DNA of 64,000 nucleotides. Origin: Limnomonas spitsbergensis. Lineage: Eukaryota > Chlorophyta > Chlorophyceae > Chlamydomonadales. Each line of letters opens with the position of its first letter. Position 1 is the stretch's first letter. Under the pieces are notes generated by a model. It was not told the origin of the DNA and searched no databases. It saw nothing but the letters and a program-made list of their open reading frames with translations. The stretch spans positions 496,001-560,000 of the forward strand of contig JAYJMM010000015.1 of NCBI GenBank assembly GCA_037349105.1, given 5' to 3'. The position numbers and the translations under genes are program-made. Shown here in pieces: positions 8,349 to 60,235 of the stretch.

Positions 8349-11300
8349 ATGTCTGCTTCTGAAGAATCTTTCAGCTTCAAAGAACTGATCGGCGAGACCT
8401 GCTATACGAAGGACGCCACCGGCGAGGCACGGGAGACCAATCTGTCAATTTTGGATGGGAAGTACGTGGGTGAGTTGCGCCGCACGAGCAATCAAAATCA
8501 GCCGCTGCATGATTGGCACCCCTCATTGCAGGGCGCCTGGGCATTTGAATAACTTTGAAGCTGTTTCCCTCCCTTGCCATACTTCTCCCCCATGCTGTAA
8601 TGTTTTCTATTTGTGCCGGATAGTCCACCATGCAGAGACTCCACGACACAACCCCTCCTAATACATCAATCAAACACTACGAAGCCCCCCCCCTTTCTCA
8701 CCTGCCCTCCTCCATGATGTAAATGCACATATTTCTGAAGGCCCGACAGCACGCCATGCAGTGACTTCACACCCCACCTCATACAAGTGTAAAAAGCCAT
8801 GAAGGCTGGTGGCAAGCCCTCTGACCCCCCTCCACTGCGTTCCCTCTGCCCCCATTCTGCTAAGGCATCTACTTCTGGAGGCCTGACAGCACGCCATGCA
8901 GAGACTCCGTGATACAACCCCTCATCACAAGGCAATCAGAGACTTTCCAATCCCTTGCATACCTACCCTCTCCGCCATTTTGATAAGGTATCTACTTCTG
9001 GAGGCCCGACAGCCCGCCATGCAGAGCCTTAACGCCCCACCTCATCGAAGTGTACGAAGCCATCAAGGCTGGCGGCAAGCCCTCTGACCCCCCTCCATTG
9101 CCTGGCCTCTGCCCCATGCTATAAAGGTATCTACTTCTGGAGGCCTGACAGCCCGCCATGCAGAGACTTCACGCCCCACCTCATCAAAGTGTACGAAGCC
9201 ACGAAGGCCGACGGCAAGCCCTTTGAGATCCTCTTCCTGATCAGCGATAAGCGAATGTTCTCCGAATTCAGCGCCACAATGCCTTGGGCAGGCATCTTGT
9301 GCTCCGGACCCAAGCGATCGGCGCTGACCAAGAATTTCGGCATTGCTTCAGTGTGAGCCATTGTCACGGTTGTATAGAGCTCCTCCTGCCAACATGCCTG
9401 TCTCTGCCATGCCAGCACGCTGCCCAGCAAATCGGCCTGCCCGCCATGCACTGGCCATGCATACTGGCCATGCATACTGGCCATGCGTACTGGCCAAGCA
9501 TGTCGGCCAAACAAACTGGCCATGCATGCCGGCCATGCACACGGACAGGCCGGGACACTCACACAAAACTGGCCCACCATGCCTCTCAAGCTTGCAGCAA
9601 TTCAAGTACTCTTCAGTTTATTTGGGTCTAGCTACGACTTTTGAGAGGCCTAAGGGTAGCCAACACTAGGCAATGGGGACCAGACATTGACCGGCCTGAG
9701 GCTGGTGGCTTAAACGACAGGGCGTAATGCACCCGAGCCACCCAGCCTTAGGCTGTGATGAGGCTGAAATATAGCTGAAATGTAGATGGCGGACGTTTAA
9801 ATAACATTGTTCCTCGTGGCCTCATATTCCCCGGGACATTCTGGGGCCGGCCTAGGACGGGCCAACACATACGGTAGACTTTCCAAGTGTTAACGAAAAA
9901 TAAGCGGGCGACAGATATACCGTAAAACGGGTTTGACTACGCGTTTCATTTTCTGTGGAGGTGCACGGAGTGGTGCGCGACAGCATAATAATTATGGTAA
10001 CAACTATTCAGGGGGGTGGGCGGAGTACGTATTCCGGCACAAAACAACAATTTCCAGCTGCGCGTTTGCCGAGTAGGGTACATTTTGCCTGCACAACAAA
10101 TTTAGTACATTAGTTCTCAACTGGGGTACGCGGACCCTATCCCGTTTACGGTAATTAAAGAAAATGCTTCCCGGGGAGGCAAAAGATAGCTGGCTGTGTT
10201 AGGCCCTAAATCCTCAAGCCTGTGCACAAGGGCTGTTTCAATCGCACGCCCGCAGCAGTTTTTGAAATATTTAATTGCTTAATCAATAAATATTGCGCAG
10301 CTGGAAGGAAGGACAGGTCCGCGCAACGCTTTTAGTCAGTCGTAAATCAGCTCTGCGCAGCACTTACAGCCAAGACGTACAGTCAACTCAGTCAATCACC
10401 TAGTTTGATGCCTGAAAGAACAGTACACGGTCAAGTATCAATAACCGGATGTCGAAGCAATCAGTCACTTTTGATAGTTGGTACCAGAAACTACTCCGTG
10501 CACCCCCCAAAATAGTTGTTTTGGCCCGTGACTGAACGGCCGTGCTCCCCTGATGTTCATTTTTGTTATATCATGCATCAACTGCGCGCTCCCTCAAAAA
10601 ACAATTAATTAACAGGAAAGTCAAACAGCCCCTGATCAGTGCCTCACAGATCCTGCAGTTTTCTGTCTCACCGGGGCGCGTTGGCGTGTTGTTGTTTTCC
10701 TTATTTTCAGCCTCTGTGGGAATTCCCTGGCGGCATTTTCTTAATTTATGTATTTCCCCTTCAGGCCTGCAATGATGATCATCAGCCCGGAACGCAAGGT
10801 CGTGGCACGCAACGCGCGACTGGCCATTCTTGAGAGGCCTGCTGAGTTCCCCTGGGCGGGCGCGAAGGATGAGGATGTCATGCGGTAAGTAATGCTGAAC
10901 AATGGTCAGCTGGATAGGTGTGTACCAAGGGTGTGGACCCAGGGTGTGGACCCAGGGTTGTGGACAAGGAGTGTGGACAAGGGGTGTGGACAAGGGATGT
11001 GGAGAAGGAGTGTGGACCCAGGGTGTGGACCCAGGGTTGTGGACAAGGAGTGTGGACTGGGGGTGTGGACAAGGGATGTGGACAAGGAGTGTGGACAAGG
11101 GGTGTGTACAAGGGATGTGGACAAGGAGTGTGGACAAGGGGTGTGGACAAGGGGTTTGGGCAAGGGTATGGACAAGGGGTATGGACAAGGGGTGTGCACT
11201 AGGAGTGTGGACAAAAGGTGTGGGCCAGGGGTATGGACAAGGGGTGTGGACAAAATGTGTGGGCCAGGGGTATGGACAGGGAGTGTGAACAAGGGGTGTG

Positions 11301-14294
11301 GACAAGGGATGTGGACAAGTAGTGTGGGCAAGGGGTGTGGACAAGGGGTTTGGGCAAGGGTATAGACCAGGGGTATGGGCAAGGGGTGTGCACAAGGAGT
11401 GTGGACACAAGGTGTGGGCCAGGGGTATGGACAAGGGGTGTGGACCGTGCACCCAGGCTCCGAGTGTCTGCTGCTGAGGACCCCTGGGAGGGCGCTGTTA
11501 CAAACTGCCATCCCATAGGCTGTGATCGTACTACTCCGACATAGATCTAGATCTGTGCGAGATACACGTTAAGGTACTTATCCCCGTTTGTAGACGCTAC
11601 AGGCGCACATGACGAAGAGGGTTTGCTGGAGTGTGGAATGTGTCTGGTGCACAATTAATCATTGAATGTGTACTGGCTAAGCGACTTGCGGGCGTGCAAA
11701 ACGGCTGGAATGACCTCTGTCATCGAGGACCTTGGTATTTATGGCAATATTGACATCTGTACTTGTGCAGTGATGCTGTCAGTACGGTGTGCTGTACCGC
11801 GGCAGCATAGTAGCCGTGGAAAGAGTAAGAAATCCTCTGGCAGCCACTTTAAAATGTTTGCTCCCCTCTTTTTCTTTTCCCTGTCCCCAGATTCACAGGG
11901 GGCGTAAAATGTGTAAATACGTTATTTTCTTGAAACCAGGAAAATTTGACTTCGGACTTGTGCAGTGATGCTGTCAGAATGGACACACTGTACCGTGACA
12001 TAGAAGCTGCCGAGGAAAGAGTAATATATCCTCTGGCAGCCACTTGGCTCTCCCCTGTTCCTTTTCCCCTCCCCTCAGTGACACCAAGGTCCTCAACTGG
12101 GTCATTTGATGCTGTAGTGCTGTACCGCAACAGCAACGCTGCCGAGGACTGTAATAAACAGTCCTCTGGCAGCCACTTTGAAATCTTGGCCCTCCCATGT
12201 TTTCTCCTCTTTTCTCTCAGTGACACCAAGGTCCTCACTTGGGTCATTTGTGATGGACCTTGATCTTGCCCCAGGAGTTTGCTAAGTTGCCGAGGACAGA
12301 ATAATAAATTATCCTCTCGCAGCCACATTGAAATCTCGGCTGACCCGTCTTTCTCTCTCTCTCTCTCTCTTTTTTTCCTCAGTGAAACCAAGGTCCTCAA
12401 TTGGGTCATCTTGATGCTCTTCGTCGTAGTCATCATGTCCATTTGGTTTGGCCACGTGTACTTCAGCGACATTCACCAGGAGACAGAGGTGGGTCGGCTG
12501 AGCGAGGGCTGAAGCTAAGAAAGAAAGAAATAAACAACGCCTCGCAGGTGTGTGAGGGTTAAGGAAACAACGCGGCATGGAATGAGGCCTCGTCTGCGCC
12601 GTTACCATGGTCGAACCTAAACCCTACACCCTAAGCCCTGCATGGTGGGTTACTGGGTTGGCCACGTGTACTTCAGCGACATTGACCAGGAGACAGAGGT
12701 GGGTGGGCTATGTGGGGGGTGATCGTAAACCCTTAGCCCTACATGGTGGGTGGGCTACACTGGGGGTTGAAGCTCAACCCTGAACCCTACAGGACATGCA
12801 GGAGGAAGCGCATATACCTAAGTGCATATACCTAAGTTTTAAAAACTGAACCCTAAAAGGCGCGCACAGGAAGTCCTAGCTGGGTTTGTGTTTGTCCTTA
12901 GAACCCTAACCCAGTGTTACAAGCACCGAGTATGCCAGCTGGTTTAGGGTTTAGGGCTTTGCAGAGCTTCTGCCGCCTTGAGCTTCTAACCTGCCTGCAG
13001 GTGCTGTCAATTTCATATTTTTGCATTAAATAAGAATGGTGAGATGGATAATACGGGAACGTTATATGTCTAAGATGTGCACAGTTTGGAAATGTGTGAG
13101 AGAAGAATTGGGGATGGTGGCCGACCCGATTCAAGCCGGTGACGTCGACAACGACGAGTTCTGTTCGCTTGCTTGAGAGGCCGCTCATAAATGCACGTAA
13201 TGGATCTTGCACTGGAGCATTCCATACTTGGGTTGCACTGAACCTTGGAGTGTGCGCCGTAGTCCCTTTGGGGGGTGGCCCCTTTTGGCCACCACTCTTG
13301 TCGATTGGGGAGGAATTCTTGACTGGCCTACGGCCGGTGGCTCGGGCAGCAGGCACCCTGCTGCATTATAAGGCCCCCAAAACTGTAGTTTGTGATTTAA
13401 CTGCATTGTAGCTAGATTGTAGCTGAAGCACTTACAAATTAACAGTCAAATTTGGGTCACTGCCACTTACATGTAGATGCGGCCTTTCAATGGCAGGCGG
13501 TGCTCTTCGAAATTGAGAGGTGACTGTCGCTGCATTTGAGTGTGCGCCGTTCTCCCTTCTGGTGGCCACCCCTTTTGGCCACCAGTCTGGTTGATGGGGG
13601 GAAACCTTCACTGGCCAACGTCCGGTGGCTCTGCCATGCTGCACTTCATAAGTGCTGACGAGGGTACCTGCGCCATGCGTTGCTTGCCCTTGACTTGACA
13701 ATCATAAGAGAAACCAATGTGAGGAAGTGGCTTCTTTTTCTTTGCCTCATGGTAACGGCGTGCTATGGCCCCAAGCTGCGCTGTTTCCTTAACTCCACGC
13801 CCTGGTAGAGCGAAGCTTTCTTTCTTTCTTGACAAGAGGCGCTGAGGCTAAACGCAAATCATGCGCCACGCGTTTTGCTTGCTACAAACCTGAGGGGCTT
13901 AAACCAGAGAACCTCTGGCATCAGCAACTCCATTTTATTTATCTTAATCTGGAGGCGCAAAATCTACTTTGTTTCCTTTCCCTCTGAAAGGAGGTCCCGA
14001 GGTTTACAAAAAAAAACTCTATTGCATGCCCTAATTGAAGTGAGGCACGAAATCTGTCACGTGTTTTACTAGTCTACTTTCCCTTGACTTGACAGGAGCT
14101 GATGATGCCTACTAGGTCAATAACCCATGTGTCTTGTTCGCCCGTTACCGCGCCGTGTGTTCTGCTTGTCCTGGTGTTTGCAGGATTACATGACTCGCAA
14201 GGCGGCCAACGCTGCGAGCAGCATGGGATCAGGGAGAGACGGCGCACAAGCGGACGTGCCTTTGGCGCAGGGATTTGGAGATGGGGAGCTATAG
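8349..14294 (+). CDS. Nucleoredoxin-like thioredoxin-fold protein with C-terminal membrane segment (5 exons)
   Basis: Proposed exons are 8349-8469, 9127-9352, 10765-10884, 12383-12488 and 14184-14294; all phases match and the product is about 227 residues. Exon 1 gives the N-terminal part of the fold (MSASEESFSFKELIGETCYT, then LDGKYVG). Exon 2 gives GIYFWRPDSPPCRDFTP, then EILFLISDKRMFSEF and MPWAGI. Exon 3 gives a nucleoredoxin-type strand (PAMMIISPERKVV), then RPAEFPWAG. Family members act as cytosolic or nuclear disulfide reductases with WCPPC; here the site reads D-S-P-P-C, so the attacking cysteine is serine and normal dithiol chemistry is unlikely. Exon 4 encodes a hydrophobic helix (VILMLFVVVIMSIWF) suggesting tail anchoring. 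Exon 5 ends in an acidic tail. Exons 1-3 are well supported; joining exons 4 and 5 rests on phase and splice sites only. Reading through exon 4 would instead stop at 12510-12512. Confidence 0.8.
8620..9126 (+). repeat. Tandem degenerate copies of exon 2 in intron 1 of the nucleoredoxin-like gene
   Basis: Before the intact exon 2 at 9127 lie at least three decayed copies. They start near 8730, 8865 and 8988, each carrying TTCTGGAGGCC-like sequence, GACAGC..GCCATGCAG, ACGCCCCACCTCAT and AAG(G)CTGGCGGCAAGCCC, at a spacing of about 125-140 bp. A further short piece (CCACCATGCAGAGACTCC) lies at about 8626. All lack an intact frame, and all keep the AGC serine codon where family members have cysteine. 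Confidence 0.85.
9435..9555. repeat. Short tandem repeat, ATGCATACTGGCC type
   Basis: About nine copies of a 12-15 bp unit (CTGGCCATGCATA) begin some 80 bases after the 5' splice site of intron 2 of the nucleoredoxin-like gene. Confidence 0.85.
9660..9790 (-). repeat. Dispersed repeat family B fragment
   Basis: The reverse complement shows the family marks: TCAGCTATATTTCAGC followed by an AAGGCTGG..CCACCAGCC block and CAGGCCGGTCAATGT. Confidence 0.6.
10915..11450. repeat. 12-bp tandem array (GTGTGGACAAGG)
   Basis: About 40 copies of GTGTGGACAAGG with variants GGTGTGGACCCA and GGTATGGACAAG. The array begins about 30 bases after the GTAAGT donor of intron 3 of the nucleoredoxin-like gene. Since 12 is a multiple of 3, all frames stay open, and the overlapping ORFs of up to 293 codons are artefacts. 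Confidence 0.95.
11800..12382 (+). repeat. ~150-bp tandem unit containing reiterated 3' splice sites of intron 3
   Basis: Four diverged units each contain a small hairpin with TCCTCTGGCAGCCAC, a polypyrimidine tract, and CAG followed by sequence like the start of exon 4 (TGACACCAAGGTCCTCA near 12078 and 12221; TGAAACCAAGGTCCTCA at the intact exon, 12383). The first unit, near 11806, has only the tract and CAG. The earlier copies are decayed duplicates of the acceptor plus the first exon bases. Confidence 0.85.
12650..12790 (+). repeat. Decayed copies of the 3' end of exon 4 plus its 5' splice site
   Basis: The sequence GGCCACGTGTACTTCAGCGA and the following GACCAGGAGACAGAGGTGGG repeat the end of exon 4 (12453-12493), about 200 bases downstream. 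A weaker third copy (GTGGGTGGGCTACACTGGGG) follows near 12746. CCCTAAACCC-like motifs are interspersed. Confidence 0.75.
13240..13660 (-). repeat. Two tandem family B fragments
   Basis: Both 13240-13430 and 13535-13660 contain GTGTGCGCCGT, GGCC(C/A)CCCTTTTGGCCACCA and a decayed CCGGTGGCTC block, so the segment was duplicated locally inside intron 4 of the nucleoredoxin-like gene. Confidence 0.6.
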
Positions 14295-14394: not shown

Positions 14395-14482
14395 GTACGC
14401 TGCTAGCAGCATGGGATGCGGGGGAGATGACGCGCAAACAGACGTCCCTTTCCCGCAGGGATTTGAAGATGGAGAGCCATAG
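14395..14482 (+). pseudogene. Duplicate of the terminal exon of the nucleoredoxin-like gene
   Basis: Starting at GCTGCTAGCAGCATGGGAT, this repeats the 3' two-thirds of the exon at 14184-14294 in the same frame (AASSMGCGGDD, then QTDVPFPQGFEDGEP) and stops at the matching codon. The downstream flank (AGAGCAGATA, CTTTGAGGC, TTTGTGGGTGCCTCAG) is duplicated as well, so the whole unit is about 200 bp in tandem. It lacks a splice acceptor, so it is probably untranslated. Confidence 0.7.
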
Positions 14483-15424
14483 AGCAGATATTATCTGCCT
14501 CCTTTGAGGCGTGCCCAAGAAATGTGTAGTGGAGCCTACCTATATTTGTGGGTGCCTCAGCTACAATCCAGCTACAGCCGGCTGCCTCAGCTACAACATG
14601 GCGTATGGCATGGGGGCCTAAATGAGGAGCCTTGCTGCATGGGCCACCAGCTGTGGGCCGGTCCAGACTGGTTCCCCATTAGCCCATTAGTGGCCTAGCC
14701 TCGACCAGGCTCCCTTTACCCATCAAGGCCTCCCTTGACCCAGGGGCTACCTATTTGGGAGGGGGGGGTAATCAGGATTTCCACCTGTCCATCCAGGAGG
14801 CGGGTACCTGAGCCCTGAGGAGAAAAATTGTGCATTTCATGTCATGGAAGTAGTCAGTGGAAATATCAAAATCATGAAGTTCATGATGTGGAAGCCTTTG
14901 GAATCGGACCCATCGCCATTCAAATAGTTGTTTGTATAGGGTTCAAGGGTCACACTTTTCACACTTCAAACGGCTATCCACTGATAAGGTACCTCCTGGC
15001 AGCATAAACCTGGCTATCTTCGGACACAATTTCTTTATAATGCCAGTCAAATACCGACATTTATAATCCCAAGCAACATGCACAGCCCTTGGACAATCAC
15101 CCACCAGCTCCTCTTCGACACACTCCAGCTCCACCTTCCCACCAGCTCCTCTATCACACACTCTAGCTCCACCTACCTAGTACCCACCAGCTCCTCCACA
15201 TTGCAGCCCCCCTACCTTTCCACCAGTTCCTCCACACTTCGCAATTAGTTTGTGCCATATGTGCCCGTAATCCTCATGATTCCTGCATGTTCAGCTAGAG
15301 CAGCTTGGAGGTTGGTGCGTGGGCATCCTGAAGTGCCAAGTTTGTTCGTGAAGTATGTATGCGGAACGTGCAAAAGGGGTCAGGACCAGTACTGGACAGT
15401 GTCTGTTTCAGTGATTACCAGACC

Positions 15425-17250: not shown

Positions 17251-18542
17251 ATGATGATCACTGGCATGACGACCCCACAACAGATCCTTTCTGTAGCATC
17301 CCATCTCATTAGCATCCTTATCTGGATCTTCACAATTATCGTTAAGCTCGTTCAGCAGACTACGGTGAGGCATGCTGTTTTCAATCCGGTAGGGCCGCGC
17401 CCCATCCATCTAGCTATCACTCGCTCGCAACTAAGATCGTGGCCCAGCCAAAGGCATGCCAACGCATTTACTGTGCTAATTTGTTTCGTGCTTGACCCAT
17501 CCGCTGTTTCTGCAGTCGGTTGTCATCACTGACAATGAGAGGGTCAACGAATCACCCGCCCCGTCCAGCGTTGGAAGCTCTCCAACAGAGGTAAGCAGGA
17601 CTGGATACATGATTTCATTTGCGGAGCCACCTCAATATATCGTACAGTTAGCTGCGGGCTGCTTGAAATTGGTTGACTACCCCGTACCCTTTAAACGTTT
17701 TAGTGCTTGGTACACTGTACATGGCATGATTTGTTCCGACTGAACTAAATTGCGTCTTTGTGGGCGTGTGCGATCAATTGCATACCGGTAGTATCATGGA
17801 GTGCTTATGCATGACGCCAAGGTTGCATCGTCCTGTCAGAATTTCTTGGGTTGATTGAATGCAGCGTATCGATCATCATCATCAACGTCCCTGCGTGTGA
17901 ATGATGCAGTAGATAGACAGCATACCATCGATCAGGGTCAGTCGGCCACGGCGGAGGCAGGTCCCCCCGTCGTCTACAGGATGTCTCGGAGATCCCTGCC
18001 CTCATCATGCAGTGGGGGCAGGAATCCCCGAGGCCTCCGCCGTGGCCGATTCACCGATCCTGGGGCGAAGATCTCCATGTGCGTCAGTCCAGCCAATAAC
18101 CTAGTCCTATACCGAATATAAACACCGCGTGCGCGGGCAGACTGATACAGAACCATGCATGGGATGACCGATTGAGGCGCTGCTACTAGCTTCATTAGTT
18201 CATTCCTGTCATGCCGGCATTTGTATCAGCCTGCTGCCCGCGCGCGCGTACGCAGCGTTTATATGACGGTATGACGACTGAATGAGCGAGTGAAGCTTGC
18301 ATACATTTACCGGCACCTACCTGCCCCTGCATGCGGTCGCCTCGCTGGTCGCTTCATTCACTGTCATTCACTCGCTCCGCATACATTCGTTGCCTGGAAC
18401 ATGTACCATCATTTGCTCGCAGGTTGAAGACGATTTTCTCATCAGCGGCAATGGGAAGATTCGAAACATCAACGTCCAGAGCCTTAACACTTCAAGCCAA
18501 TGTTCGGGCGACGACGTAGACGAAGAGCGGACATCATCGTAA
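17251..18542 (+). CDS. Small single-pass membrane protein, unrecognised (3 exons)
   Basis: Exons are 17251-17364, 17516-17590 and 18423-18542, all in phase 0 with good GT-AG sites (ACG|GTGAGG, TGCAG|TCG, GAG|GTAAGC, CGCAG|GTT), giving 102 residues. Residues 12-34 form one hydrophobic segment (LSVASHLISILIWIFTIIV). The rest is Ser-rich and acidic (SVVITDNERVNESPAPSS, then a tail ending DDVDEERTSS). I recognise no family. A further exon may hide in the 832-base second intron, but reading 17862 onward in phase 0 meets a stop. It could be the C-terminal part of a larger gene with upstream exons I did not find. Confidence 0.5.
17930..18060. repeat. Inverted repeat inside an intron
   Basis: TCGGCCACGGCGGAGGC at about 17942 and its perfect complement GCCTCCGCCGTGGCCGA at about 18034 form a 17-bp stem. 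Further inverted pairs follow up to 18400 (GCGCGGGCAG with CTGCCCGCGC; AGTGAAGC with GCTTCATT), so the intron is rich in foldback sequence. Confidence 0.8.
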
Positions 18543-49100: not shown

Positions 49101-52100
49101 TCAATATCCCCATCTACACCACGCTCAAGCGCCTGACGCCCATCTTCGTGCTGTTGCTGAAGGTGAGCCTCGGGCAGAGTCTGGCCGTGCACATGCCCTT
49201 TTTACTTTTCAGGACAAAGGCAGGCCCCCCTTTAAGATGATGGGTGATGGGTTACACTTTTGAAGAGTACAGGGTTTCACTTCTTTAAGGTTGAAGAGTA
49301 ACACTCCACATCTAGGGTGTGGGGTTAGGGATTACAATACCCAACTTTTGACTATCGCTTGGCCATCCCTTCCACACCTCAGGTCAAAATTGCATGCATG
49401 CATGGGAGGCATGTTTGAGGGGCATGCATAAGGGGCTTGAATGAGGCGCATGCATGGGGAGCATACGTGAGGAACATGCATCAGCAAGAGCGTTTGGAAC
49501 AGATGTTAGGACTGTGCATGATGAACAAGTATAAGGTGCATGGGGAGCATACATGATGGGCGTGCATGAGCAGGAGCATTTCGAGCAGATATGAGGACTG
49601 TGCATGATGAGCGTGTATAAGGTGCATGCATGGGGAGCATACATGATGGGCGTGCATGCGTGGGGAGCATGCATGATAGGCGTGCATGAGGCTCATGCGG
49701 TGAGAGCACGTATGAGGTGCATCTATGGGGGGCATGCACAAGGACCCAGCTCCCCACCCCAGCCTCCCTGATCCCCCTACTGCCCCCCAATGCACAGCTC
49801 GTCATGACCCGGCGGGCCCCGCCCTGGCACGTCAGCGCGTCGGTGCTCATGGTGGTCTTCGGCTGCGTCATTGCCGGCGCTGGTGACCTGGCGTTCGACC
49901 TGACGGGCTACGTGTACTCAGTAGGCAGCTGTGCCATGCAGGTGTGACGCAAGCTCCCAAAGTCGGGACCTGGGTGTACTACAAGCCTGATGGCCATGCA
50001 GGTGTTTCAGCCTGCCATGCGCCATGCAGGTGTGATGGCATGCCCTGCACCATGCAGGTGTGATAGCATGCCCTGCACCATGCAGGTGTGATGGCATGCC
50101 CTGCACCATGCAGGTGTCATAGCATGCCCTGCACCATGCAGGTGTGATGGCATACCCTGCACCATGCAGGTGTAAAGGCATGCTCTGCACCATGCAGGTG
50201 TGACGGCAAGCCTTCCTAGACAGAACCTGGGATGCATCATATGCCTGATGGCCATGCAGGTGTCTTGGCATGCCCTGCGCCATGCAGGTGTCACGGCATG
50301 CCCTGCGCCATGCAGGTATCACGGCATGCCCTGCGCCATGCAGGTGGCACAGCATACCCTGCGCCATGCAGGTATCACGGCATGCCCTGCGCCATGCAGG
50401 TGGCACAGCATACCCTGCGCCATGCAGGTGTCACGGCATGCCCTGCGCCATGCAGGTGTCACGGCATGCCCTGCGCTATGCAGGTGGCACGGCATGCCCT
50501 GCGCCCTGCAGGTGACACGGCATGCCCTGCGCCATGCAGGTGTCACGGCATGCCCTGAGCCATGCAGGTGTCACGGCATGCCCTGGGCCATGCAGGTGTC
50601 ACGGCATGCCCTGCGCCCTGCAGGTGTCACGGTATGCCCTGAGCCATGCAGGTGTCACAGCATACCCTGAGCCATGCAGGTGTCACAGCATGCCCTGGGC
50701 CATGCAGGTGTCACGGCATGCCCTGCGCCATGCAGGTGTGACGGCATGCCCTGAGCCATGCAGGTGTCACGGCATGCCCTGCGCCATGCAGGTGTCAAGG
50801 CATGCCCGGGGCCATGCAGGTGTCACGGCATGTCCTGCGCCATGCAGGTGTCAAGGCATGCCCTGGGCAATGCAGGTGTCACGGCATGCCCTGGGCCATG
50901 CAGGTGTCACGGCATGCCCTGCGCCATGCAGGTGTCACGGCATGCCCTGAGCCATGCAGGTGTCATGGCATGCCCTGCGCCATGCAGGTGACACGGCATG
51001 CCCTGCGCCATGCAGGTGTCACGGCATGCCCTGCGCCATGCAGGTGTCTCGGCATGCCCTGCGCCATGCAGGTTTCACGGCATGCCCTGAGCCATGCATG
51101 TGGCACGGCATACCCTGAGCCATGCAGGTGGCACGTCATGACCTGCGCCCTGACACGGCATGCCCTGAGCCATGCAGGTGTCTCGGCATGCCCTGCGCCA
51201 TGCAGGTGTCACGGCATGCCCTGCGCTATGCAGGTGGCACGGCATGCCCTGAGCCATGCAGGTGGCACATCATGCCCTGCGCCCTGCAGGTGACACGGCA
51301 TGCCCTGAGCCATGCAGGTGTCACGGCATGCCCTGCGCCCTGCAGGTGACACGGCATGCCCTGCGCCATGCAGGTGTTACGGCATGCCCGGGGCCATGCA
51401 GGTGTCACGGCATGCCCTGGGCCATGCAGGTGTCTCGGCATGCCCTGCGCCATGCAGGTTTCACGGCATGCCCTGAGCCATGCAGGTGGCACGGCATGCC
51501 CTGCGCCCTGACACGGCATGCCCTAAGCCATGCAGGTGTCTCGGCATGCCCAGCGCCATGCAGGTTTCACGGCATGCCCTGAGCCATGCAGGTTTCACGG
51601 CATGCCCTGAGCCATGCAGGTGGCACGGCATGCCCTGCGCCCTGCAGGTGACACGGCATGCCCTGAGCCATGCAGGTCTCACGGCCTGCCCTGCGCCCTG
51701 CAGGTGACACGGCATGCCCTGTGCCCTGCAGGTGTCGCGGCATGCCCTGCGCCATGCACGTGTCTCCGCATGCCCTTCGCCATGCAGGTGTCACGGCATG
51801 CCCTGCGCTATGCAGGTGGCACAGCATGCCCTGAGCCATGCAGGTTGCACGTCATGCCCTGCGCCCTGCAGGTGACACGGCATGCCCTGAGCCATGCAGG
51901 TGTCACGGCATGCCCTGCGCCATGCAGGTGTCACGGCATGCCCTGCGCCATGCAGGTGTCACGGCATGCCCTGCGCCATGCAGGTGTCACGGCATGCCCT
52001 GAGCCATGCAGGTGTCACGGCATGCCCTGAGCCATGCAGGTGTCATGGCATGCCCTGAGCCATGCAGGTGTCTCGGCATGCCCTGAGCCATGCAGGTGTC

Positions 52101-55100
52101 ACGGCATGCCCTGAGCCATGCAGGTGTGACGGCATGCCCTGCGCCATGCAGATGTCACGGCATGCCCTGCGCCATGCAGGTGTCACGGCATGCCCTGCGC
52201 TATGCAGGTGGCACGGCATGATCTGAGCCATGCAGGTGTCACGGCATGCCCTGCGCCATGCAGGTGTCTTGGCATGCCCTGCGCTATGCAGGTGGCACGG
52301 CATGATCTGAGCCATGCAGGTGTCACGGCGTGCCCTGAGCCATGCGTGTGGCATGGCATGCCCTGAGCCATGCAGGTGTCACGGCATGCCCTGCGCCATG
52401 CAGGTGTCACGGCATGCCCTGAGCCATGCAGGTGTCACGGCATGCCCGGGGCCATGCAGGTGTCATGGCATGCCCTGCGCCATGCAGGTGTCAAGGCATG
52501 CCCTGGGCAATGCAGGTGTCACGGCATGCCCTGGGCCATGCAGGTGTCACGGCATGCCCTGCGCCATGCAGGTGTCACGGCATGCCCTGAGCCATGCAGG
52601 TGTCACGGCATGCCCTGCGCCATGCAGGTGACACGGCATGCCCTGCGCCATGCAGGTGTCACGGCATGCCCTGCGCCATGCAGGTGTCTCGGCATGCCCT
52701 GCGCCATGCAGGTTTCACAGCATGCCCTGAGCCATGCAGGTGGCACGGCATACCCTGAGCCATGCAGGTGGCACGTCATGACCTGCGCCCTGACACGGCA
52801 TGCCCTGAGCCATGCAGGTGTCTCGGCATGCCCTGCGCCATGCAGGTTTCACGGCATGCCCTGCGCTATGCAGGTGGCACGGCATGCCCTGAGCCATGCA
52901 GGTGGCACATCATGCCCTGCGCCCTGCAGGTGACACGGCATGCCCTGAGCCATGCAGGTGTCACGGCATGCCCTGCGCCCTGCAGGTGACACGGCATGCC
53001 CTGCGCCATGCAGGTGTTACGGCATGCCCTGGGCCATGCAGGTGTCACGGCATGCCCTGGGCCATGCAGGTGTCTCGGCATGCCCTGCGCCATGCAGGTT
53101 TCACGGCATGCCCTGAGCCATGCAGGTGGCACGGCATGCCCTGAGCCATGCAGGTGTCACGGCATGCCCTGCGCCCTGACACGGCATGCCTCGAGCCATG
53201 CAGGTGTCTCGGCATGCCCTGCGCCATGCAGGTTTCACGGCATGCCCTGAGCCATGCAGGTTTCACGGCATGCCCTGAGCCATGCAGGTGGCACAGCATG
53301 CCCTGCGCCCTGCAGGTGACACGGCATGCCCTGAGCCATGCAGGTCTCACGGCCTGCCCTGCGCCCTGCAGGTGACACGGCATGCCCTGCGCCATGCAGG
53401 TGTCGCGGCATGCCCTGCGCCATGCACGTGTCTCCGCATGCCCTTCGCCATGCAGGTGTCTCGGCATGCCCTGCGCTATGCAGGTGGCACGGCATGCCCT
53501 GAGCCATGCAGGTGGCACGTCATGCCCTGCGCCCTGCAGGTGACACGGCATGCCCTGAGCCATGCAGGTGTCACGGCATGCCCTGCGCCATGCAGGTGTC
53601 ACGGAATGCCCTGCGCCATGCAGGTGTCACGGCATGCCCTGCGCCATGCAGGTGTCACGGCATGCCCTGAGCCATGCAGGTGTCACGGCCTGCCCTGAGC
53701 CATGCAGGTGTCATGGCATGCCTTGAGCCATGCAGGTGTCTCGGCATGCCCTGAGCCATGCAGGTGTCACGGCATGCCCTGAGCCATGCAGGTGTGACGG
53801 CATGCCCTGCGCCATGCAGATGTCACGGCATGCCCTGCGCCATGCAGGTGTCACGGCATGCCCTGCGCTATGCAGGTGGCACGGCATGATCTGAGCCATG
53901 CAGGTGTCACGGCATGCCCTGCGCCATGCAGGTGTCTCGGCATGCCCTGCGCTATGCAGGTGGCACGGCATGATCTGAGCCATGCAGGTGTCACGGCGTG
54001 CCCTGAGCCATGCGTGTGGCATGGCATGCCCTGAGCCATGCAGGTTTCACGGCATGCCCTGCGCCATGCAGGTGTCACGGCATGCCCTGAGCCATGCAGG
54101 TGTCAAGGCATGCCCGGGGCCATGCAGGTGTCACGGCATGCCCTGCGCCATGCAGGTGTCAAGGCATGCCCTGGGCAATGCAGGTGTCAAGGCATGCCCT
54201 GGGCCATGCAGGTGTCACGGCATGCCCTGCGCCATGCAGGTGTCACGGCATGCCCTGAGCCATGCAGGTGTCACGGCATGCCCTGCGCCATGCAGGTGAC
54301 ACGGCATGCCCTGCGCCATGCAGGTGTCACGGCATGCCCTGCGCCATGCAGGTGTCTCGGCATGCCCTGCGCCATGCAGGTTTCACGGCATGCCCTGAGC
54401 CATGCAGGTGGCACGGCATACCCTGAGCCATGCAGGTGGCACGTCATGACCTGCGCCCTGACACGGCATGCCCTGAGCCATGCAGGTGTCTCGGCATGCC
54501 CTGCGCCATGCAGGTTTCACGGCATGCCTTGCGCTATACAGGTGGCACGGCATGCCCTGAGCCATGCAGGTGGCACATCATGCCCTGCGCCCTGCAGGTG
54601 ACACGGCATGCCCTGAGCCATGCAGGTGTCACGGCATGCCCTGCGCCCTGCAGGTGACACGGCATGCCCTGCGCCATGCAGGTGTTACGGCATGCCCTGG
54701 GCCATGCAGGTGTCACGGCATGCCCTGGGCCATGCAGGTGTCTCGGCATGCCCTGCGCCATGCAGGTTTCACGGCATGCCCTGAGCCATGCAGGTGGCAC
54801 GGCATGCCCTGAGCCATGCAGGTGGCACGGCATGCCCTGCGCCCTGACACGGCATGCCTCGAGCCATGCAGGTATCTCGGCATGCCCTGCGCCATGCAGG
54901 TTTCACGGCATGCCCTGAGCCATGCAGGTTTCACGGCATGCCCTGAGCCATGCAGGTGGCACGGCATGCCCTGCGCCCTGCAGGTGACACGGCATGCCCT
55001 GAGCCATGCAGGTCTCACGGCCTGCCCTGTGCCCTGCAGGTGACACGGCATGCCCTGCGCCATGCAGGTGTCGCGGCATGCCCTGCGCCATGCACGTGTC

Positions 55101-58100
55101 TCCGCATGCCCTTCGCCATGCAGGTGTCACGGCATGCCCTGCGCTATGCAGGTGGCACGGCATGCCCTGAGCCATGCAGGTTGCACGTCTTGCCTTGCGC
55201 CCTGCAGGTGACACGGCATGCCCTGAGCCATGCAGGTGTCACGGCATGCCCTGCGCCATGCAGGTGTCACGGAATGCCCTGCGCCATGCAGGTGTCACGG
55301 CATGCCCTGAGCCATGCAGGTGTCACGGCATGCCCTGAGCCATGCAGGTGTCACGGCATGCCCTGAGCCATGCAGGTGTCATGGCATGCCTTGAGCCATG
55401 CAGGTGTCTCGGCATGCCCTGAGCCATGCAGGTGTCACGGCATGCCCTGAGCCATGCAGGTGTGACGGCATGCCCTGCGCCATGCAGATGTCACGGCATA
55501 CCCTGCGCCATGCAGGTGTCACGGCATGCCCTGCGCTATGCAGGTGGCACGGCATGATCTGAGCCATGCAGGTGTCACGGCATGCCCTGCGCCATGCAGG
55601 TGTCTCGGCATGCCCTGCGCTATGCAGGTGGCACGGCATGATCTGAGCCATGCAGGTGTCACGGCGTGCCCTGAGCCATGCGTGTGGCATGGCATGCCCT
55701 GAGCCATGCAGGTGTCACGGCATGCCCTGCGCCATGCAGGTGTCACGGCATGCCCTGAGCCATGCAGGTGTCATGGCATGCCCTGAGCCATGCAGGTGTC
55801 TCGGCATGCCCTGAGCCATGCAGGTGTCACGGCATGCCCTGAGCCATGCAGGTGTGACGGCATGCCCTGCGCCATGCAGGTGTCACGGCATGCCCTGCGC
55901 CATGCAGGTGTCTCGGCATGCCCTGCGCTATGCAGGTGGCACGGCATGATCTGAGCCATGCAGGTGTCACGGCATGCCCTGAGCCATGCGTGTGGCATGG
56001 CATGCCCTGAGCCATGCAGGTGTTACGGCATGCCCTGCGCCATGCAGGTGTCACGGCATGCCCTGCGCCATGCAGGTGTCACGGCATGCCCTGCGCCCTG
56101 CAGGTGTCACGGTATGCCCTGAGCCATGCAGGTGTCACAGCATGCCCTGAGCCATGCAGGTGTCACGGCATGCCCTGCGCCATGCAGGTCTCACGGCATG
56201 CCCTGAGCCATGCAGGTGTTACGGCATGCCCTGAGCCATGCAGGTGTCAAGGCATGCCCTGCGCCATGCAGGTGTCACGGCATGCCCTGAGCCATGCAGG
56301 TGTCACGGCATGCCCTGAGCCATGCAGGTGTCATGGCATGCCCTGCGCGATGCAGCTGTCATGGTATGCTCTGCGCCATGCAGGTGTCACGGCATGCCCT
56401 GCGCCCTGCAGGTGTCATGGCATGCCCTGCGCCGTGCAGGTGTCTCGGCATGCCCTGCGCCATGCAGCTGTCATGGTATGCCCTGAGCCATGCAGGTGTC
56501 ACGGCATGCCCTGCGCCATGCAGTTGTCACGGCATGCCCTGAGCCATGCAGGTGTCATGGCATGCCCTGCGCCATGCAGTTGTCACAACATGCCCTGAGC
56601 CTTGCAGGTGTCACGGCATGCCCTGGGCCATGCAGGTGTCACGGCATGCCCTGCGCGATGCAGGTGTCACGGCATGCCCTGCGCCATGCAGGTGTCACGG
56701 CATGCCCTGAGCCATGCAGGTGTCATGGCATGCCCTGAGCCATGCAGGTGTCATGGCATGCCCTGCGCCATGCAGGTGTCACGGCATGCCCTGCGCCATG
56801 CAGGTGTCACGGCAATACGGCATGCTTTGGGATATAGAGGGTGTGGATGGCCATTACTGGCACATGTAACGGCCTCCTGGAGGGATGGAAGCCTGGAATT
56901 CACCTAAATTCCCCTCACCCAGTCATCATCACATATGAGGAGGCGGCCTGGATATGGGTGGGTAGCGGTGGGTCCCTGCGTGGATTTTGATCCTGGAGCC
57001 TGGGGGGCTCTGTGGTCCCTAGTTCTTATTTGGTGTATGCAAATATTGATTCTTGATGGCCGTGACCACTGAACTCTTGACCTCATGAACCTTGATATTG
57101 AAAACATTTCTTCCTGAACCCTTGTACCCCTGAAACCCTTGTACTGCGGGACCCTTGTAATCCTGACACTTGTACTCCTGATCACATGGACTGCTGAACC
57201 TTGAATTCCTTATCCCTGGACCCCTGAACCCTGAACACCGGATCCCTTGAACTTCTGAACTCTCGTACCCTTCCACTCCTGAACCCTTGAAATCCTGAAC
57301 CCTAAAATTCTTAACCCTTGAAGTCCTGACCCCTGAACCCAGTACTGCTAATCCCTGAACTCCTCATTCTCTGTTCTGCTGAACCTTTACCCTACCGTAT
57401 TAGTGAACCTTGAACCGTCAACCCTGTTTGCACAGGCTGCATATCTGGTGTTGGTGGAGACGCAGGGTGCAAAGGGTATCCCGGCCTCAGAGATGCTCTG
57501 GTATAATGCCGTGTCCTCGTTGCCGCTACTGCTGGCGGCGTCGTGGGCCTCGGGGGAGGGTATGGTGATCCGCTCCTCGTTCGCCGCAGCGGCGTCACGG
57601 CACGGCGCCCCGACAACCCTGCTGGCCATCGTGCTGTGCTCCTCGGGTGTGTGGGTGGGTGGGGGTGAGGCTTGGTGAGTGTGTGTGTGTGGGGGGGGGG
57701 GGTAGGGTGCTCCACGGGTTAAGAACGGTGCATACCTGCTGGGCCCTGCTTGACGCCCGGTCTTGTGGGGCGTCACGGATGCTCCACGAGTGAGTGTGAC
57801 TGTGTGTGGAAGTGCGCTCCACGGGTGTGTGGCTGGAGCCTTCAGTTAAAAAAATGCTATAATTTCGCTGGTATGTGCGGTGTGTTTGTGTGTGCTGTGC
57901 AGAGCATGTCAGGGTACTCCATGCATGCATAAGCACGTGTATGTGCATGTGGCTGCAAGGGTGTTCTACATGTGCATAAGCACGTGTATGTGCATGTGGC
58001 TGCAAGGGTGTTCTACATGTGCATAAGCACGTGTATGTGCATGTGGGTGTCTGGGTGCTCCAGGGGTGCGTTTGCCCTTTGTGCCCCAACCTGTGCTTGT

Positions 58101-60235
58101 GTGGTTCTTTCCCCGATTATTCCATCCTGCCCCAACCTGTGCTCCCTACCCCTGTCCCTGGTCAGGTGGCATCATCCTCAACTTCTCCATGTTCCTGGCG
58201 ACGGTGGTGGGATCGGTAAGGCCCTTGCCAGGGATCTATGAGGATCTAGCAGGATTCTGGATCGGGGATCGGGTACACTCTAGCCTGTGGATCCGGATCT
58301 GGGTTTTGTGTGGCGCTTGCCATGGATCTAGATCTGCGATTGGTGAGATGCTAGGAAGGGATTGTGATTTGGGAATGGCGAGGTGCCAGCAGGGGATCTA
58401 GATCTGGGATCGGTGAGGTGCTGGCAGTAATCTAGATCTGGGATCAATCAGGCGCTAGCAGGGATCTGGATCTGGGATCGGTGAGGTGCTAGCCTGGGGC
58501 TCTACATCCGTGATCGGTGAGGTGCTAGTAGAGATTAGATCTGGGATCAGGGAGGCACCAGCCAGGGATCTGGATCTGAGGTATGTGTTGCACTGGTCAG
58601 GGGAAATAGATCTGGGATCTGCCGTTGGTTTGAGGTATGGCGGGGAGAATAATTGGGGCAGCAAGATGCTGCGACCTATCCTGACATTGTACTTTGGCTG
58701 TGTACAAAACGCATTGGCTGTGTGCTCTTGCCTCCCCATGCGCCCCATGCCCTTCAGTTAGCTTGCACCCTCATGTCCACCCAAGCATCTTATGGTGCCT
58801 GGCTCCCGCCTTTTAAGCATTATGTTTGCTGGTTAGTGGCAGACACGGACCACCTTCCTTGCAGCTTCCTTGCAGCCAGACAGATATGGACCACCTGTCT
58901 TGCAGCTTCTTTCCAGGCATGTACCACCATCCTTGTAGCTTCCAGGCATATGCAACCTTCCTTGCAGCTTCCTTTCAGCCAGACAGACATGGACCACCTT
59001 CCTTGCAGCTCCCTTGCAGCCAGACAGACATGGACCACCTTCCTTGCAGCTGCCTTGCAGCCAGGCAGACATGGACCACCTTCCTTGCAGCTGCTTTGCA
59101 GCCCTCCAGGAATATGCCACCATCCTTGTAGCCTCCAGGCATATGCAACCTTCCTTGCAGCTTTCTTGCAGCTAGAAAGATATGGACCACCTTCTTTGCA
59201 GCTTCCAGATGCCCTCCCGTGTCGAGTCAAGTGCTGTTGGGTGCAACGTCAATGCAACCACACAGTGGCCTTTTTCGAAAGGGCCAGGCAGTGTGGACAG
59301 CAGGTACAGAGTCGGACCTATCCTGAACCCTGAACGCAGGCCCTATTCATGACCTTGGTGGGCAACATTAAGACGGTGCTGGTACTGGCGTTGGGCTTTG
59401 TGCTGTTAGGAGGCGCAAAGCTGACCCTGCTCATGGCTCTAGGTGAGCTGAGGGTGTTTTTAAGGTTGGGGAGGGGGGTAGTTTTTAAGTGTTCAACAGA
59501 TATTTTTTGTATTTGTAAAAAACAAAAGGAGCTATGGATAAGATGAATTCGGACTGGTACTACAGTACTACAGTACTGGTACTACAGTACTACAGCACTG
59601 GTACTACAGTAGTCGAGTCTAGGGGGATGTGTATGTCAGGAGATGGGCTTGAGTTGAGATGGTGTGTCGTTCTTTGCATGAGGACTAGCCAGTTAGCAAA
59701 CCAGTATGGAAGTGTGAACTATTGGCCTGCCCCAATACAGGACTTGGTTTTTTTGTTGACGAATATGAAGGGGAGCTAGAGCTTGGATTCTGCCACATCA
59801 CGTCTGGGAAACAGTTTGAACATGCAATCCTGCTTTGTCTTTCTTTCCCAGCCAGTTGTCTGTCCCTTCACTTTATTTCCCACTTTTCCTCATTTCTACC
59901 TCCTGCCCCCCTTGTGTTTGTTTGTTCTTTTCTACCAAACCTTCAGTTAGGCGCCCACGCGGCCAAGCCTTGTCGACCAGGGCCCAGAGGTGTGACATCA
60001 TTGACATGCATTCCTGCTTCAGACTTGCATTCCTGCTTCACACTTGCATTCCGCAGGTATTGCGGTGAACTTGTTGGGCGGTGTTTGGTACGGATCCCTC
60101 AAGTTCAAGCCGCCGCCGCTGCAGGCGGAGGAGGAGACTGCAACGCTACTAGGCAGCGCCCCCTCGGTGGGGAGCGGGGCGCAGGTGCACATCAACGTGG
60201 GGCACCACCGCCACCCGCCGTCAGCCCCCGTGTAG
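46138..60235 (+). CDS. Nucleotide-sugar transporter, SLC35D-like, DMT superfamily (10 exons, ~371 residues)
   Basis: Exons are 46138-46191, 46594-46669, 47303-47388, 47763-47839, 49027-49162, 49798-49941, 57436-57646, 58166-58215, 59340-59442 and 60057-60235; all phases agree. Family marks: VSTAMSFINKWALQLFPLP in helices 1-2, NTALSLGGLAKINIPIYTTL and LKRLTPIFVLLLK in the middle, GAGDLAFDLTGYVYS, and LVGNIKTVLVLALGFVLLG near the end. About ten hydrophobic segments are present, as expected. Such proteins exchange a nucleotide sugar for the nucleoside monophosphate across Golgi or ER membranes; the substrate cannot be read from sequence, but the middle motif is closest to UDP-sugar carriers of the SLC35D/plant UGNT1 type. 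Exons 1 and 2 rest on splice phase only. Introns make up 92% of the gene and carry most of its tandem arrays. Confidence 0.92.
46960..47045. repeat. AT-rich palindromic repeat
   Basis: ATATGATATATCATATCATA and GATATATCATATATCATAT form a long self-complementary stretch in intron 2 of the transporter. Confidence 0.8.
47404..47762. repeat. CTG/GTT-type trinucleotide array in transporter intron 3
   Basis: Degenerate GCTACTGCTGCTACTGTTGC repeats fill almost the whole intron from about 15 bases after the donor to the acceptor. The end of exon 3 itself reads ACGCTGCTGCTACTGCAG, so the array resembles an expansion of the exon end. The polyleucine and polycysteine ORFs are artefacts. Confidence 0.9.
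47840..48175 (+). repeat. Seven tandem copies of the exon 4 / 5' splice-site junction
   Basis: The junction reads GAACTCTGGTCGTGGTACAG|GTGAAAG (exon end 47839). About every 45-55 bases the intron repeats it: TGAATTCTGGCCACGAG, GAACCCTAATCGTGGTACAG, TGGGGACTCGTGGTACAGGT, GAACTCTGATCATGG, AGAACTCTGGTCATCGTACA and, at 48133, GAGTTTGAAGTCTGGTCGTG. Several copies keep a CAG|GT donor. Confidence 0.93.
48295..48610. repeat. ~70-bp tandem repeat with CCCTAAACCC motifs
   Basis: Five copies of GCCAGGGCCTGCCTGCAGGT, then TTTACAAAACCCCAACACTT and AACCCTAAACCCTGTTGG. Confidence 0.9.
48815..49030 (+). repeat. Reiterated 3' splice region of transporter intron 4
   Basis: GCGCAGGTGATGGCAGCTG (48823) and GTAGGGGTGGCAGCTACAGG (48930) are decayed copies of GAGCAGGTGTCGGCAGCTGA, the acceptor and first bases of exon 5 (49027). 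Each is followed by CCTGATGG or CCTAATGG and CCCTAAACCC-like sequence. Confidence 0.75.
49390..49740. repeat. Degenerate GGGGAGCATGCATGA-type repeat
   Basis: About fifteen units of 20-30 bp (GCATGCATGGGGAGCATACA), some in a larger block of ~110 bp (AGCAGATATGAGGACTGTGC), fill intron 5 of the transporter. Confidence 0.88.
49942..56812 (+). repeat. 6.9-kb 28-bp array seeded at the exon 6 donor of the transporter
   Basis: Roughly 240 copies of a 28-bp unit, GCCATGCAGGTGTCACGGCA plus TGCCCTGC. The exon 6 junction itself reads GCCATGCAG|GTGTGACG, matching the unit at 16 of 17 bases, and the array starts at that point without a gap. Two early copies carry a longer shared insert (ACCTGGG..GCCTGATGGCCATGC) at 49970-50010 and 50225-50260. 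Further in there is a higher-order repeat of 1668 bases; for example, 52183, 53851 and 55519 start equivalent blocks. The last copy ends where GGCAATACGGCATGC begins. Confidence 0.96.
57100..57400. repeat. Degenerate CCTGAACCCTTG repeat
   Basis: About twenty-five poorly conserved 11-14 bp units (CCTGAACCCTTGTACTC) run to near the acceptor of exon 7. Confidence 0.85.
57647..57705. repeat. GT/G-rich simple repeat starting at the exon 7 donor
   Basis: GTGTGTGGGTGGGTGGGGGT, then TGGTGAGTGTGTGTGTGTG and a G10 run begin at the first base of intron 7. Confidence 0.85.
57905..58060. repeat. ~58-bp tandem repeat, three copies
   Basis: GCATAAGCACGTGTATGTGC, then ATGTGGCTGCAAGGGTGTTC and TACATGT; the first two copies are almost identical and the third diverges at its end. 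Confidence 0.95.
58216..58625 (+). repeat. Tandem copies of the exon 8 / 5' splice-site junction
   Basis: The junction is GGTGGTGGGATCG|GTAAGG, then CCCTTGCCAGGGATCT. Eight to ten units of about 45 bp follow, with consensus GATCTGGGATCGGTGAGGTG, CTAGCAGGGATCTA. Many units keep ATCG|GTGAGG, which is a better 5' splice site than the real one. Confidence 0.93.
58840..59215. repeat. ~45-bp tandem repeat rich in CCTTCCTTGCAG
   Basis: About nine units of ATGGACCACCTTCCTTGCAG, CTCCCTTGCAGCCAGACAG. Each holds one or two pyrimidine-tract/CAG motifs that look like 3' splice sites, all upstream of the true acceptor at 59339. Confidence 0.92.
59558..59612. repeat. GGTACTACAGTACTACAG simple repeat
   Basis: Alternating GGTACTACAGTACTACAGTA blocks, partly palindromic (AGTACT), in intron 9 about 115 bases after the donor. 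Confidence 0.9.
59835..60006 (+). mobile_element. Retrotransposon 3'-tail element inside transporter intron 9
   Basis: Pyrimidine-rich lead (TTTATTTCCCACTTTTCCTC), TTAGGCGCCCACGCGGCCAA core and CCAGAGGTGTGACATCATTG end, inserted 50 bases before the last exon. Confidence 0.85.
60004..60056 (+). repeat. Reiterated 3' splice region before the last transporter exon
   Basis: GCATTCCTGCTTCAGACTT, GCATTCCTGCTTCACACTT and GCATTCCGCAG follow each other; the last is the acceptor of exon 10. Confidence 0.85.

Follow-up and report, generated by a model that had tools for sequence, protein, structure and literature searches.

Introduction

This work concerns a 64,000-nucleotide stretch of the genome of the green alga Limnomonas spitsbergensis (contig JAYJMM010000015.1, positions 496,001 to 560,000 of the forward strand), referred to below as the window. 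Four genes were modelled in it: a nucleoredoxin-like gene (NRX), a coiled-coil gene (CC), an MRG gene and a gene for a transporter of the TPT family (TRP). Their introns contain tandem repeats, and many of these repeats include copies of the splice junction of the very intron in which they lie.

Several kinds of sequence are known to add to introns. Introner elements supply intron sequence throughout algal genomes; their sequence is common to the introns and brings both splice sites with it. The arrays described here differ from introners in being private to each intron, since the cross-intron control reached only 3.3% of the base pairs in 82 introns. Introns can also hold minisatellites and satellites, which are tandem arrays of variable copy number. 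Unlike intronic satellites in general, the repeat unit here often includes a splice site of the intron in which it lies, and the GT or AG is intact in most copies. Tandem duplication is, moreover, a route of intron gain for which Hellsten 2011 and Gao and Lynch 2009 are reportedly cited.

In intron gain of the Rogers type, a tandem duplication covers exon and intron sequence and splicing makes it harmless (PMC4974935, PMC3443670). The arrays studied here are alike in that a tandem duplication extends across exon and intron and splicing makes it harmless, but they lengthen an existing intron with no new exon boundary, whereas the Rogers-type event makes a new intron (PMC4974935, PMC3443670). 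An 83-bp duplication within an existing intron is mentioned for a potato RdRp gene, with no detailed description (PMC4974935). In Daphnia pulex, internal direct repeats lengthen newly gained introns; they are put down to repeated repair of staggered double-strand breaks, described as a passive trend to greater length, and counted in 55 of 90 new and 100 of 617 established introns, the repeats shared with the adjacent exon being 4-12 bp long (PMC4202315). Direct repeats within introns add length here too, but in established introns, with repeats of tens to more than 100 bp that include whole junctions, and with arrays on the scale of satellites (PMC4202315). Rogers and Bendich (2025) compared the 5' and 3' borders of introns and found direct repeats with a mean of 11.4 bp, which they read as insertion scars (PMC11782384). 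Both those repeats and the present ones are located at intron borders, but here it is copies of one border that lie inside the intron (PMC11782384). Searches of open-licence papers returned no published description of arrays that carry junctions within established introns. The introns of Chlamydomonas and its volvocine relatives are unusually long, and what drives this is reported as unknown (Plant Cell 2021, PMC8226300).

Copies of splice junctions in the window genes

The window gene set comprises 25 introns, all of them GT-AG (25/25), in models built by reading and by script. Junction copies were sought with two designs. In design A, the match between a junction and its own intron was set against its matches in 100 length-matched pieces taken from other introns of the window; the resulting donor and acceptor probe scores (D40 and A40) are given in Table 1 with the control maximum in brackets. 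In design B, used for the window and for a set of CCT/Cpn60 genes, the junction 40-mer was compared with the adjacent 1 kb, a target that overruns short introns, and with 60 controls.

Own-junction copies scored above every control at 8 of 25 donors and 8 of 25 acceptors in design A, and above controls at 7 of 25 donors and 7 of 25 acceptors in design B. By hand count on design B, at least one junction copy is present in 13 of the 25 introns. The observation that introns hold copies of their own splice junctions is confirmed.

The initial annotation had reported donor copies in the TRP introns after exons 4, 6 and 8 and in MRG intron 3, acceptor copies in MRG introns 2 and 5 and, in NRX, copies of acceptors with exon starts and of an exon end with its donor. 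All of these were recovered, those of NRX at the acceptors of introns 1 and 3 and the donor of intron 4, and donor copies in TRP intron 7 and acceptor copies in MRG intron 6 can be added to them (Table 1). The acceptor copies reported in TRP introns 4 and 9 are weak: both scores lie above the control maximum (26 (23) for intron 4), but intron 4 ties its control in design B and the exon-side probes are negative. The array of CC intron 6, also attributed to the donor, is not a junction copy, being barely above its control in design A (Table 1) and not positive in design B, with 0 of 10 copies spanning the GT. The donor of TRP intron 3 scored 28 (24) in design A in low-complexity sequence, and a donor copy in MRG intron 2 near 28590 is visible by eye and not significant (score 18, p 0.07).

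Junction copies in 107 introns and their position

The sample was widened with 13 further genes of this genome, which added 82 introns and brought the total to 107 introns in 17 genes. Over the whole sample, a degenerate direct own-copy was found on the intron side of 28 of 107 donors and 34 of 107 acceptors, where about 1.75 would be expected by chance, and on the exon side of 4 of 107 donors and 0 of 107 acceptors. The CCT/Cpn60 set (design B) contributed 18/58 donors and 20/58 acceptors with copies on the intron side; for the exon side the counts were 2/58 and 0/58. The seven further genes, searched inside the own intron only, contributed 3/24 donors and 7/24 acceptors (exon side, 1/24 and 0/24). 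By hand count, 49 of the 107 introns have at least one junction copy.

The initial annotation had taken such copies as intron growth seeded at the junctions. According to this explanation, a process linked to splicing or transcription (R-loops, spliceosome-bound nascent RNA, template switching) would preferentially copy junctions, and donors most of all, into the intron beside them, and the frequency of own copies at donors and acceptors among the 107 introns is in its favour. The excess of own-junction copies over the junctions of other introns, which had been proposed as its test, is present in the window and in both wider sets; nevertheless, this comparison cannot separate seeding from random hits.

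The position of the copies was followed with 30-base probes at stepped distances from the junction, searched inside the own intron only, in 82 of 83 introns (one of less than 140 bp was left out). At offset 0, own copies were found at 23 of 82 donors and 25 of 82 acceptors. Inverted copies amounted to about 4% over all offsets, with 2.4% expected by chance; they are at control level both with these probes and in base-pair coverage. The donor profile shows no peak at the junction in these 82 introns, which speaks against seeding there: the rate is 28% at offset 0 and 26-45% inside the intron, and on the exon side 20% at -20, 13% at -45, 6% at -60, 0% at -75 and 5% at -90. The acceptor profile has 30.5% at offset 0, 17-21% at 10-45 bp inside and 26-35% deeper, with 23% at -45 and 7% at -90 in the exon. 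Own-copy rates thus fade across some 60 bp into the exons. Pooled over -10 to +10, the junction rates are 27.8% (donor) and 26.3% (acceptor), and 38.5% and 30.6% at 60-180 bp inside. High-identity copies, taken as young, are rarer at junctions than in the interior (donor 4.4% vs 9.2%, acceptor 4.9% vs 6.7%; 83 introns), again contrary to seeding.

Interior tiles of the window introns (n=990; three repeat blocks left out) have own copies in 31% of cases per side and 45% on either side, the latter above the window junction rate of 28%. In the CCT/Cpn60 introns the interior rates are 21% per side and 34% on either side (n=1613).

Arrays had also been said to lie close to the 5' splice site. A general bias of this kind was not found: in the 93 of 107 introns of 200-5000 bp, array coverage by successive fifths was flat (0.235, 0.223, 0.238, 0.246 and 0.219; first vs last p=0.73). 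Among these 93 introns, 48 have more than 10% coverage and 38 have none.

Tandem duplication is also seen away from splice sites. The end of the last NRX exon, with the stop codon and the 3' flank, is followed by a tandem copy of itself (Table 1), which means that no splice site is needed for reiteration and counts against seeding at junctions. In CC, Tandem Repeats Finder (TRF) detected 84-bp repeats inside exons 4 and 8. The duplication process is hence not specific to splicing. Tandem duplication so shapes the CC protein too. By eye, positions 19222-23340 of CC look like a tandem duplication of an exon-intron block, in which exons 4-6 resemble exons 6-8.

Simulation of uniformly placed duplications

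In the simulations, introns grew through tandem duplications placed at uniform probability along the sequence, copies decayed and exons changed more slowly. Over 16 settings, the ratio of junction to interior rates was 0.50-0.77 for donors and 0.48-0.89 for acceptors, and the observed ratios (0.72 and 0.86) fall within these ranges, so that seeding is not called for. Interior rates in these runs were 26-40% on the donor side and 30-54% on the acceptor side, and the tail into the exon resembles the observed one. An earlier simulation, with interior rates below the observed ones, gave ratios of 0.46-0.97 (donor) and 0.35-1.02 (acceptor). The simulations are simplified; the 16-setting run is roughly matched in rates but produces 1.1-2.1 TRF arrays per intron, against 0.52 observed.

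Two counts of arrays were made. By TRF boundaries, 6 of 66 arrays straddle a junction, with 5.4 expected. This is weak evidence against seeding, as the count misses arrays starting inside the intron, such as that of TRP intron 6, and includes none of the window's arrays. By array content, a donor copy is present in 14 of 56 TRF arrays (25%) and an acceptor copy in 6 of 56. The acceptor carriers fall inside the simulated share (8-23%), a further point against seeding, and the donor carriers exceed theirs (7-16%), a point in favour of it. Among the 14 donor-carrier rows, two represent one low-complexity intron (TRP intron 3) and two represent a single intron (TRP intron 4). A formula gives about 3.1 carriers per end plus 0.9 false positives out of 56 arrays; this formula is mostly too low, the simulated content counts being 1.0 to 3.2 times its value, which leaves a minor part of the donor excess. 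Donors may be preferred, by up to about twofold. Most of the pattern would so be what random hits of tandem duplications give, as far as these models represent it.

Proposed origin of the junction copies

We consider, with a probability of about 0.7, that the junction copies are explained by local tandem duplication at random positions together with a filter imposed by splicing. Local head-to-tail duplications of some 20-150 bp would begin at more or less random intron positions, arising by slippage, unequal exchange or staggered-break repair. When the duplicated segment lies over a splice site, the pre-mRNA would carry two donors or two acceptors. Use of the outermost site (first donor or last acceptor) would leave the mRNA unchanged, and the extra copy would become intronic, lengthening the intron by one unit. 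The opposite, inner-type choice would add coding sequence and would be removed by selection. The copies would then decay, presumably in a neutral way, and could occasionally expand to satellites. Provided that the outermost site is used, random tandem duplication with the splicing filter would lead to the bias towards the intron side, the positional profile with its tail into the exon, the direct orientation and the persistence of decoy sites.

Regarding these decoys, copies spanning the splice site were found at 21 donors and 30 acceptors of the 107 introns, with at least one intact GT or AG in 20/21 and 24/30, respectively. Per intron, spanning copies keep the GT in 90% and the AG in 80% of cases, compared with 75% and 73% for neighbouring dinucleotides, and in the TRP intron 6 satellite the GT is kept in 196 of the 202 spanning copies found. 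The top-scoring copy equals or exceeds the true site at 10 of 20 donors and 17 of 24 acceptors, values that are approximate with a matrix from only 25 introns. Mean scores of decoy and true sites are 4.86 vs 5.61 for donors (p=0.053) and 3.47 vs 3.70 for acceptors (p=0.62). Selection against decoy splice sites was considered and is not seen, GT and AG being kept no less than neighbouring dinucleotides; free use of inner copies should have led to the loss of their GT or AG by selection. For the reading frame to hold, the outermost site would have to be used despite intact decoys; the homology of TRP to Chlamydomonas eustigma proteins agrees with this, and in genes outside such a comparison the outermost site would probably be used as well. 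These arrays constitute a natural experiment on splice-site choice.

Some results weigh against random placement. The acceptor profile rises locally (30.5% at offset 0 vs 17-21% at 10-45 bp inside), which also fits seeding; as a supposition, this rise is ascribed to a slower decay of the exon-derived originals and to low-complexity pyrimidine tracts. In the CCT/Cpn60 set, the junction rates of 31% and 34% are higher than the one-sided interior rate of 21% and reach the either-side rate of 34%. Donor carriers (14/56, 25%) are more frequent than in the simulations (7-16%) or by the formula (about 4). Finally, the multi-kb arrays all have a junction in them or at their start, as seeding would also have it. 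They are the two arrays of more than 2 kb in the 107 introns (28 bp x245 in TRP intron 6 and 41 bp x56, beginning at its donor, in one CCT gene) and one of 122 bp x48 in intron 5 of an MRG paralogue, with a unit that covers the acceptor plus about 45 bp of exon 6. From unit and intron length, simple arithmetic puts the chance of including a junction at roughly 7%, 25% and 16% for the 28-bp, 41-bp and 122-bp arrays; the first was picked by the initial annotation.

On the basis of the donor carriers (14/56 vs 7-16%) and the three multi-kb arrays, there is a low probability that arrays with a splice site in their unit, in particular a donor, are favoured. If true, the spliceosome would follow an outermost-site rule strong enough to pass over intact decoys by the tens to hundreds, and junction splicing or transcription might itself promote expansion. 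Seeding at the junctions as the general mechanism seems improbable. Of the initial proposal, direct and mostly tandem reiteration that includes junctions stands and is common, but a special start at the junction is not needed, given junction-to-interior ratios within the simulated range and young copies that are rarer at junctions.

Paralogues

A close TRP paralogue lies on C123. The DNA identity of the exons is about 80-97%, and the paralogue shares several arrays with the window gene (51, 70, 28, 34 and 41 bp). Copy number has changed between the two genes: the 28-bp array of intron 6 occupies about 0.48 kb in the paralogue and 6.8 kb in the window. Of the two genes, only the paralogue has a copy of the opening 80 bp of exon 7. 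The more distant MRG paralogue has different arrays at the same intron positions.

Paralogues also bear on the model of Rogers, in which duplication of an exonic AGGT segment creates or multiplies introns and the arrays would be relics of new introns. Many junctions are AG/GT-like and exon-derived copies do sit inside introns, as this model would have it. On the other hand, intron sequence next to the junction is part of the copies, and in three CCT/Cpn60 paralogue pairs both members share their intron positions, 29 in all, which makes the introns older than the pairs, with the reservation that the models were built to share positions. This origin is therefore very unlikely.

An artefact of assembly or of gene models, through tandem errors in long reads or decoys taken for true sites, is likewise very unlikely. 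The assembly was made from PacBio continuous long reads (CLR) (PMC11228838). In addition, splice sites in the 13 wider genes were chosen with a matrix trained on the 25 window introns, some of them being set by hand. Nevertheless, several of the same arrays are found with diverged units in the independent TRP paralogue, and the TRP exons align with proteins of another species free of gaps at the joins.

Amount of private repeat and intron length

Own direct repeats make up 27.4% of base pairs in 82 introns, against 3.2% for inverted repeats and 3.3% for the cross-intron control; the first figure leaves out TRP intron 6 and rises to 35.6% with it. In the 58 CCT/Cpn60 introns, the cross-intron control is 0.9% of base pairs. 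The claim that each intron has its own private repeat is upheld by these values. Insertion of mobile introner-like or transposable elements in the introns can practically be discarded: interspersed repeats occupy about a third of the genome (PMC11228838), but cross-intron matches are far below own matches, inverted copies are at control level and the repeat units differ from gene to gene.

As arrays are private to an intron, a library of interspersed repeats would tend to miss them. Private self-repeat accounts for 29.6% of intron base pairs in 93 introns. For L. spitsbergensis, the genome paper reports 18,277 genes with about 5.7 introns per gene and an intron length of 788 bp, together with 15.5 Mb of annotated long terminal repeat (LTR) elements, 0.10% of satellites and less than 0.01% of simple repeats (PMC11228838). 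If 29.6% held genome-wide, an extrapolation from 17 genes, intronic self-repeat would come to about 24 Mb, more than the 15.5 Mb of LTR elements. This DNA may be unclassified or missed in the published repeat table.

Outside introns, own direct repeats cover 6.6% of the window's intergenic sequence (25 pieces of 800 bp) and 20.4% overall of six random 5-kb stretches (0 to 74%). That introns are special with respect to other DNA is not established, as random stretches reach the latter value.

Repeats contribute to intron length, as had been proposed, but only in part. In 29 pairs of homologous introns, the difference in length correlates with the difference in arrays (Spearman 0.53, p=0.003), and the detected arrays explain about 2133 of the 9077 bp of length difference, about a quarter.

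Gene models, samples and coordinates

The exon counts are 5 for NRX, 8 for CC and 7 for MRG. The TRP model covers exons 2-10; exon 1 was not located and the start of exon 2 is not fixed. One stop codon closes each of the NRX, CC and TRP frames, and the MRG frame is open for 265 codons, with a stop a few bases beyond the end of the model. The Pfam scan, made on NRX, MRG and TRP, supports all three (Thioredoxin_8, MRG with Tudor-knot, and TPT, respectively). TRP is 64-66% identical to two C. eustigma proteins in an alignment that is gap-free at the exon joins, which fixes the true TRP junctions among the repeated ones.

For the wider sample, an exon search of the genome with CCT/Cpn60 gave 72 matches in 14 loci, of which three paralogue pairs (L044/L045, L047/L048 and L049/L050) were modelled, with 58 introns. 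Their exons are mostly 80-92% identical in DNA, which permitted precise models. The automatic models were corrected by hand: spurious small exons were taken out, split exons were joined and one acceptor was shifted. In the seven further genes, 24 introns were kept and 13 of 37 pairs of neighbouring exon matches were dropped for too large a profile gap or overlapping matches. The introns of the paralogues MRG-B and TRP-B are described here and stand outside the counts. The members of the three CCT/Cpn60 pairs have near-identical proteins and mostly unalignable introns, and these pairs suggest an old large-scale duplication in the genome.

Table 1. Genes and repeat features of the window (positions counted from its first nucleotide; scores from design A with the control maximum in brackets)
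Feature	Positions	Strand	Exons	Support and remarks
NRX, nucleoredoxin-like gene	8349..14294	+	8349-8469, 9127-9352, 10765-10884, 12383-12488, 14184-14294	GT-AG, single open frame; Thioredoxin_8 1.7e-15 (Pfam)
CC, coiled-coil gene	17251..23922	+	17251-17364, 17516-17590, 18423-18538, 19012-19558, 19972-20085, 20666-20872, 21989-22102, 22792-23922	GT-AG, single open frame
MRG gene	26970..33848	+	26970-27088, 28342-28459, 29783-29878, 30942-31091, 31780-31902, 32802-32939, 33795-33848	MRG 8.5e-34, Tudor-knot 4.2e-10 (Pfam)
TRP, TPT-family transporter gene	46549..60235	+	Exons 2-10: 46549-46669, 47303-47388, 47763-47839, 49027-49162, 49798-49941, 57436-57646, 58166-58215, 59340-59442, 60057-60235	GT-AG, one open frame
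NRX intron 1, ~120-bp units with copies of acceptor and exon 2 start	8735..9126	+		A40 50 (21), exon-only 55 (19); limits by eye
NRX intron 3, ~140-bp units with copies of acceptor and exon 4 start	11720..12382	+		A40 49 (18), exon-only 44 (18); limits by eye
NRX intron 4, copy of exon-4 end and donor, then related 48-bp copies	12650..12800	+		D40 52 (31), exon-only 55 (18); TRF 12698-12791
Tandem copy of last NRX exon end, stop codon and 3' flank	14397..14516	+		Offset ~188 bp from 14209-14325; local alignment score 127 over ~117 bp
CC intron 6, 79-bp x 11.4 array from ~8 bp inside the donor, without exon sequence	20880..21784	+		TRF; donor probe 21 vs 20
MRG intron 2, ~115-bp units with copies of acceptor and exon 3 start	29480..29782	+		A40 31 (22), exon-only 46 (16); limits by eye
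MRG intron 3, copies of exon-3 end and donor	30040..30260	+		D40 55 (21), exon-only 41 (22); limits by eye
MRG intron 5, acceptor-region copies, 36-bp x 2.2	32725..32804	+		A40 35 (20); TRF
MRG intron 6, copy of acceptor and exon 7 start	33595..33640	+		A40 33 (22), exon-only 33 (20); limits by eye
TRP intron 4, ~51-bp units with copies of exon-4 end and donor	47840..48170	+		D40 36 (18), exon-only 40 (19); present in C123 paralogue too
TRP intron 6, 28-bp x 244.7 satellite, unit matching exon-6 end and donor	49942..56814 (TRF from 49993)	+		TRF; D40 42 (26)
TRP intron 7, copy or copies of exon-7 end and donor	57647..58070	+		D40 33 (21); one above threshold, others by eye
TRP intron 8, 34-bp x 7.4 array with exon-8 end and donor	58216..58578	+		D40 27 (19); TRF
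TRP intron 9, 19-bp copies of intron tail before acceptor, without exon sequence	60003..60056	+		A40 27 (25); exon-only 14, negative

Other repeats in the window

Further repeats were found by TRF. A perfect GGAAGC hexamer repeated 86 times (31962-32479, 100% matches) lies in MRG intron 5 near the donor. A 28-bp x 191 satellite with 78% matches occupies the left edge of the window (1-5342), outside the four genes. Between MRG and TRP there is a 69-bp x 32 array with a nested 334-bp higher-order repeat (38939-41108). A reading frame near 35300-36400 may resemble a retroelement. Inspection by eye also shows a dispersed element in both orientations, with recurring text such as GGGCCCAGAGGTGTAA.GTCATTGACAT, at 42700-45400 and 59940-61200; it is perhaps a non-autonomous transposon.

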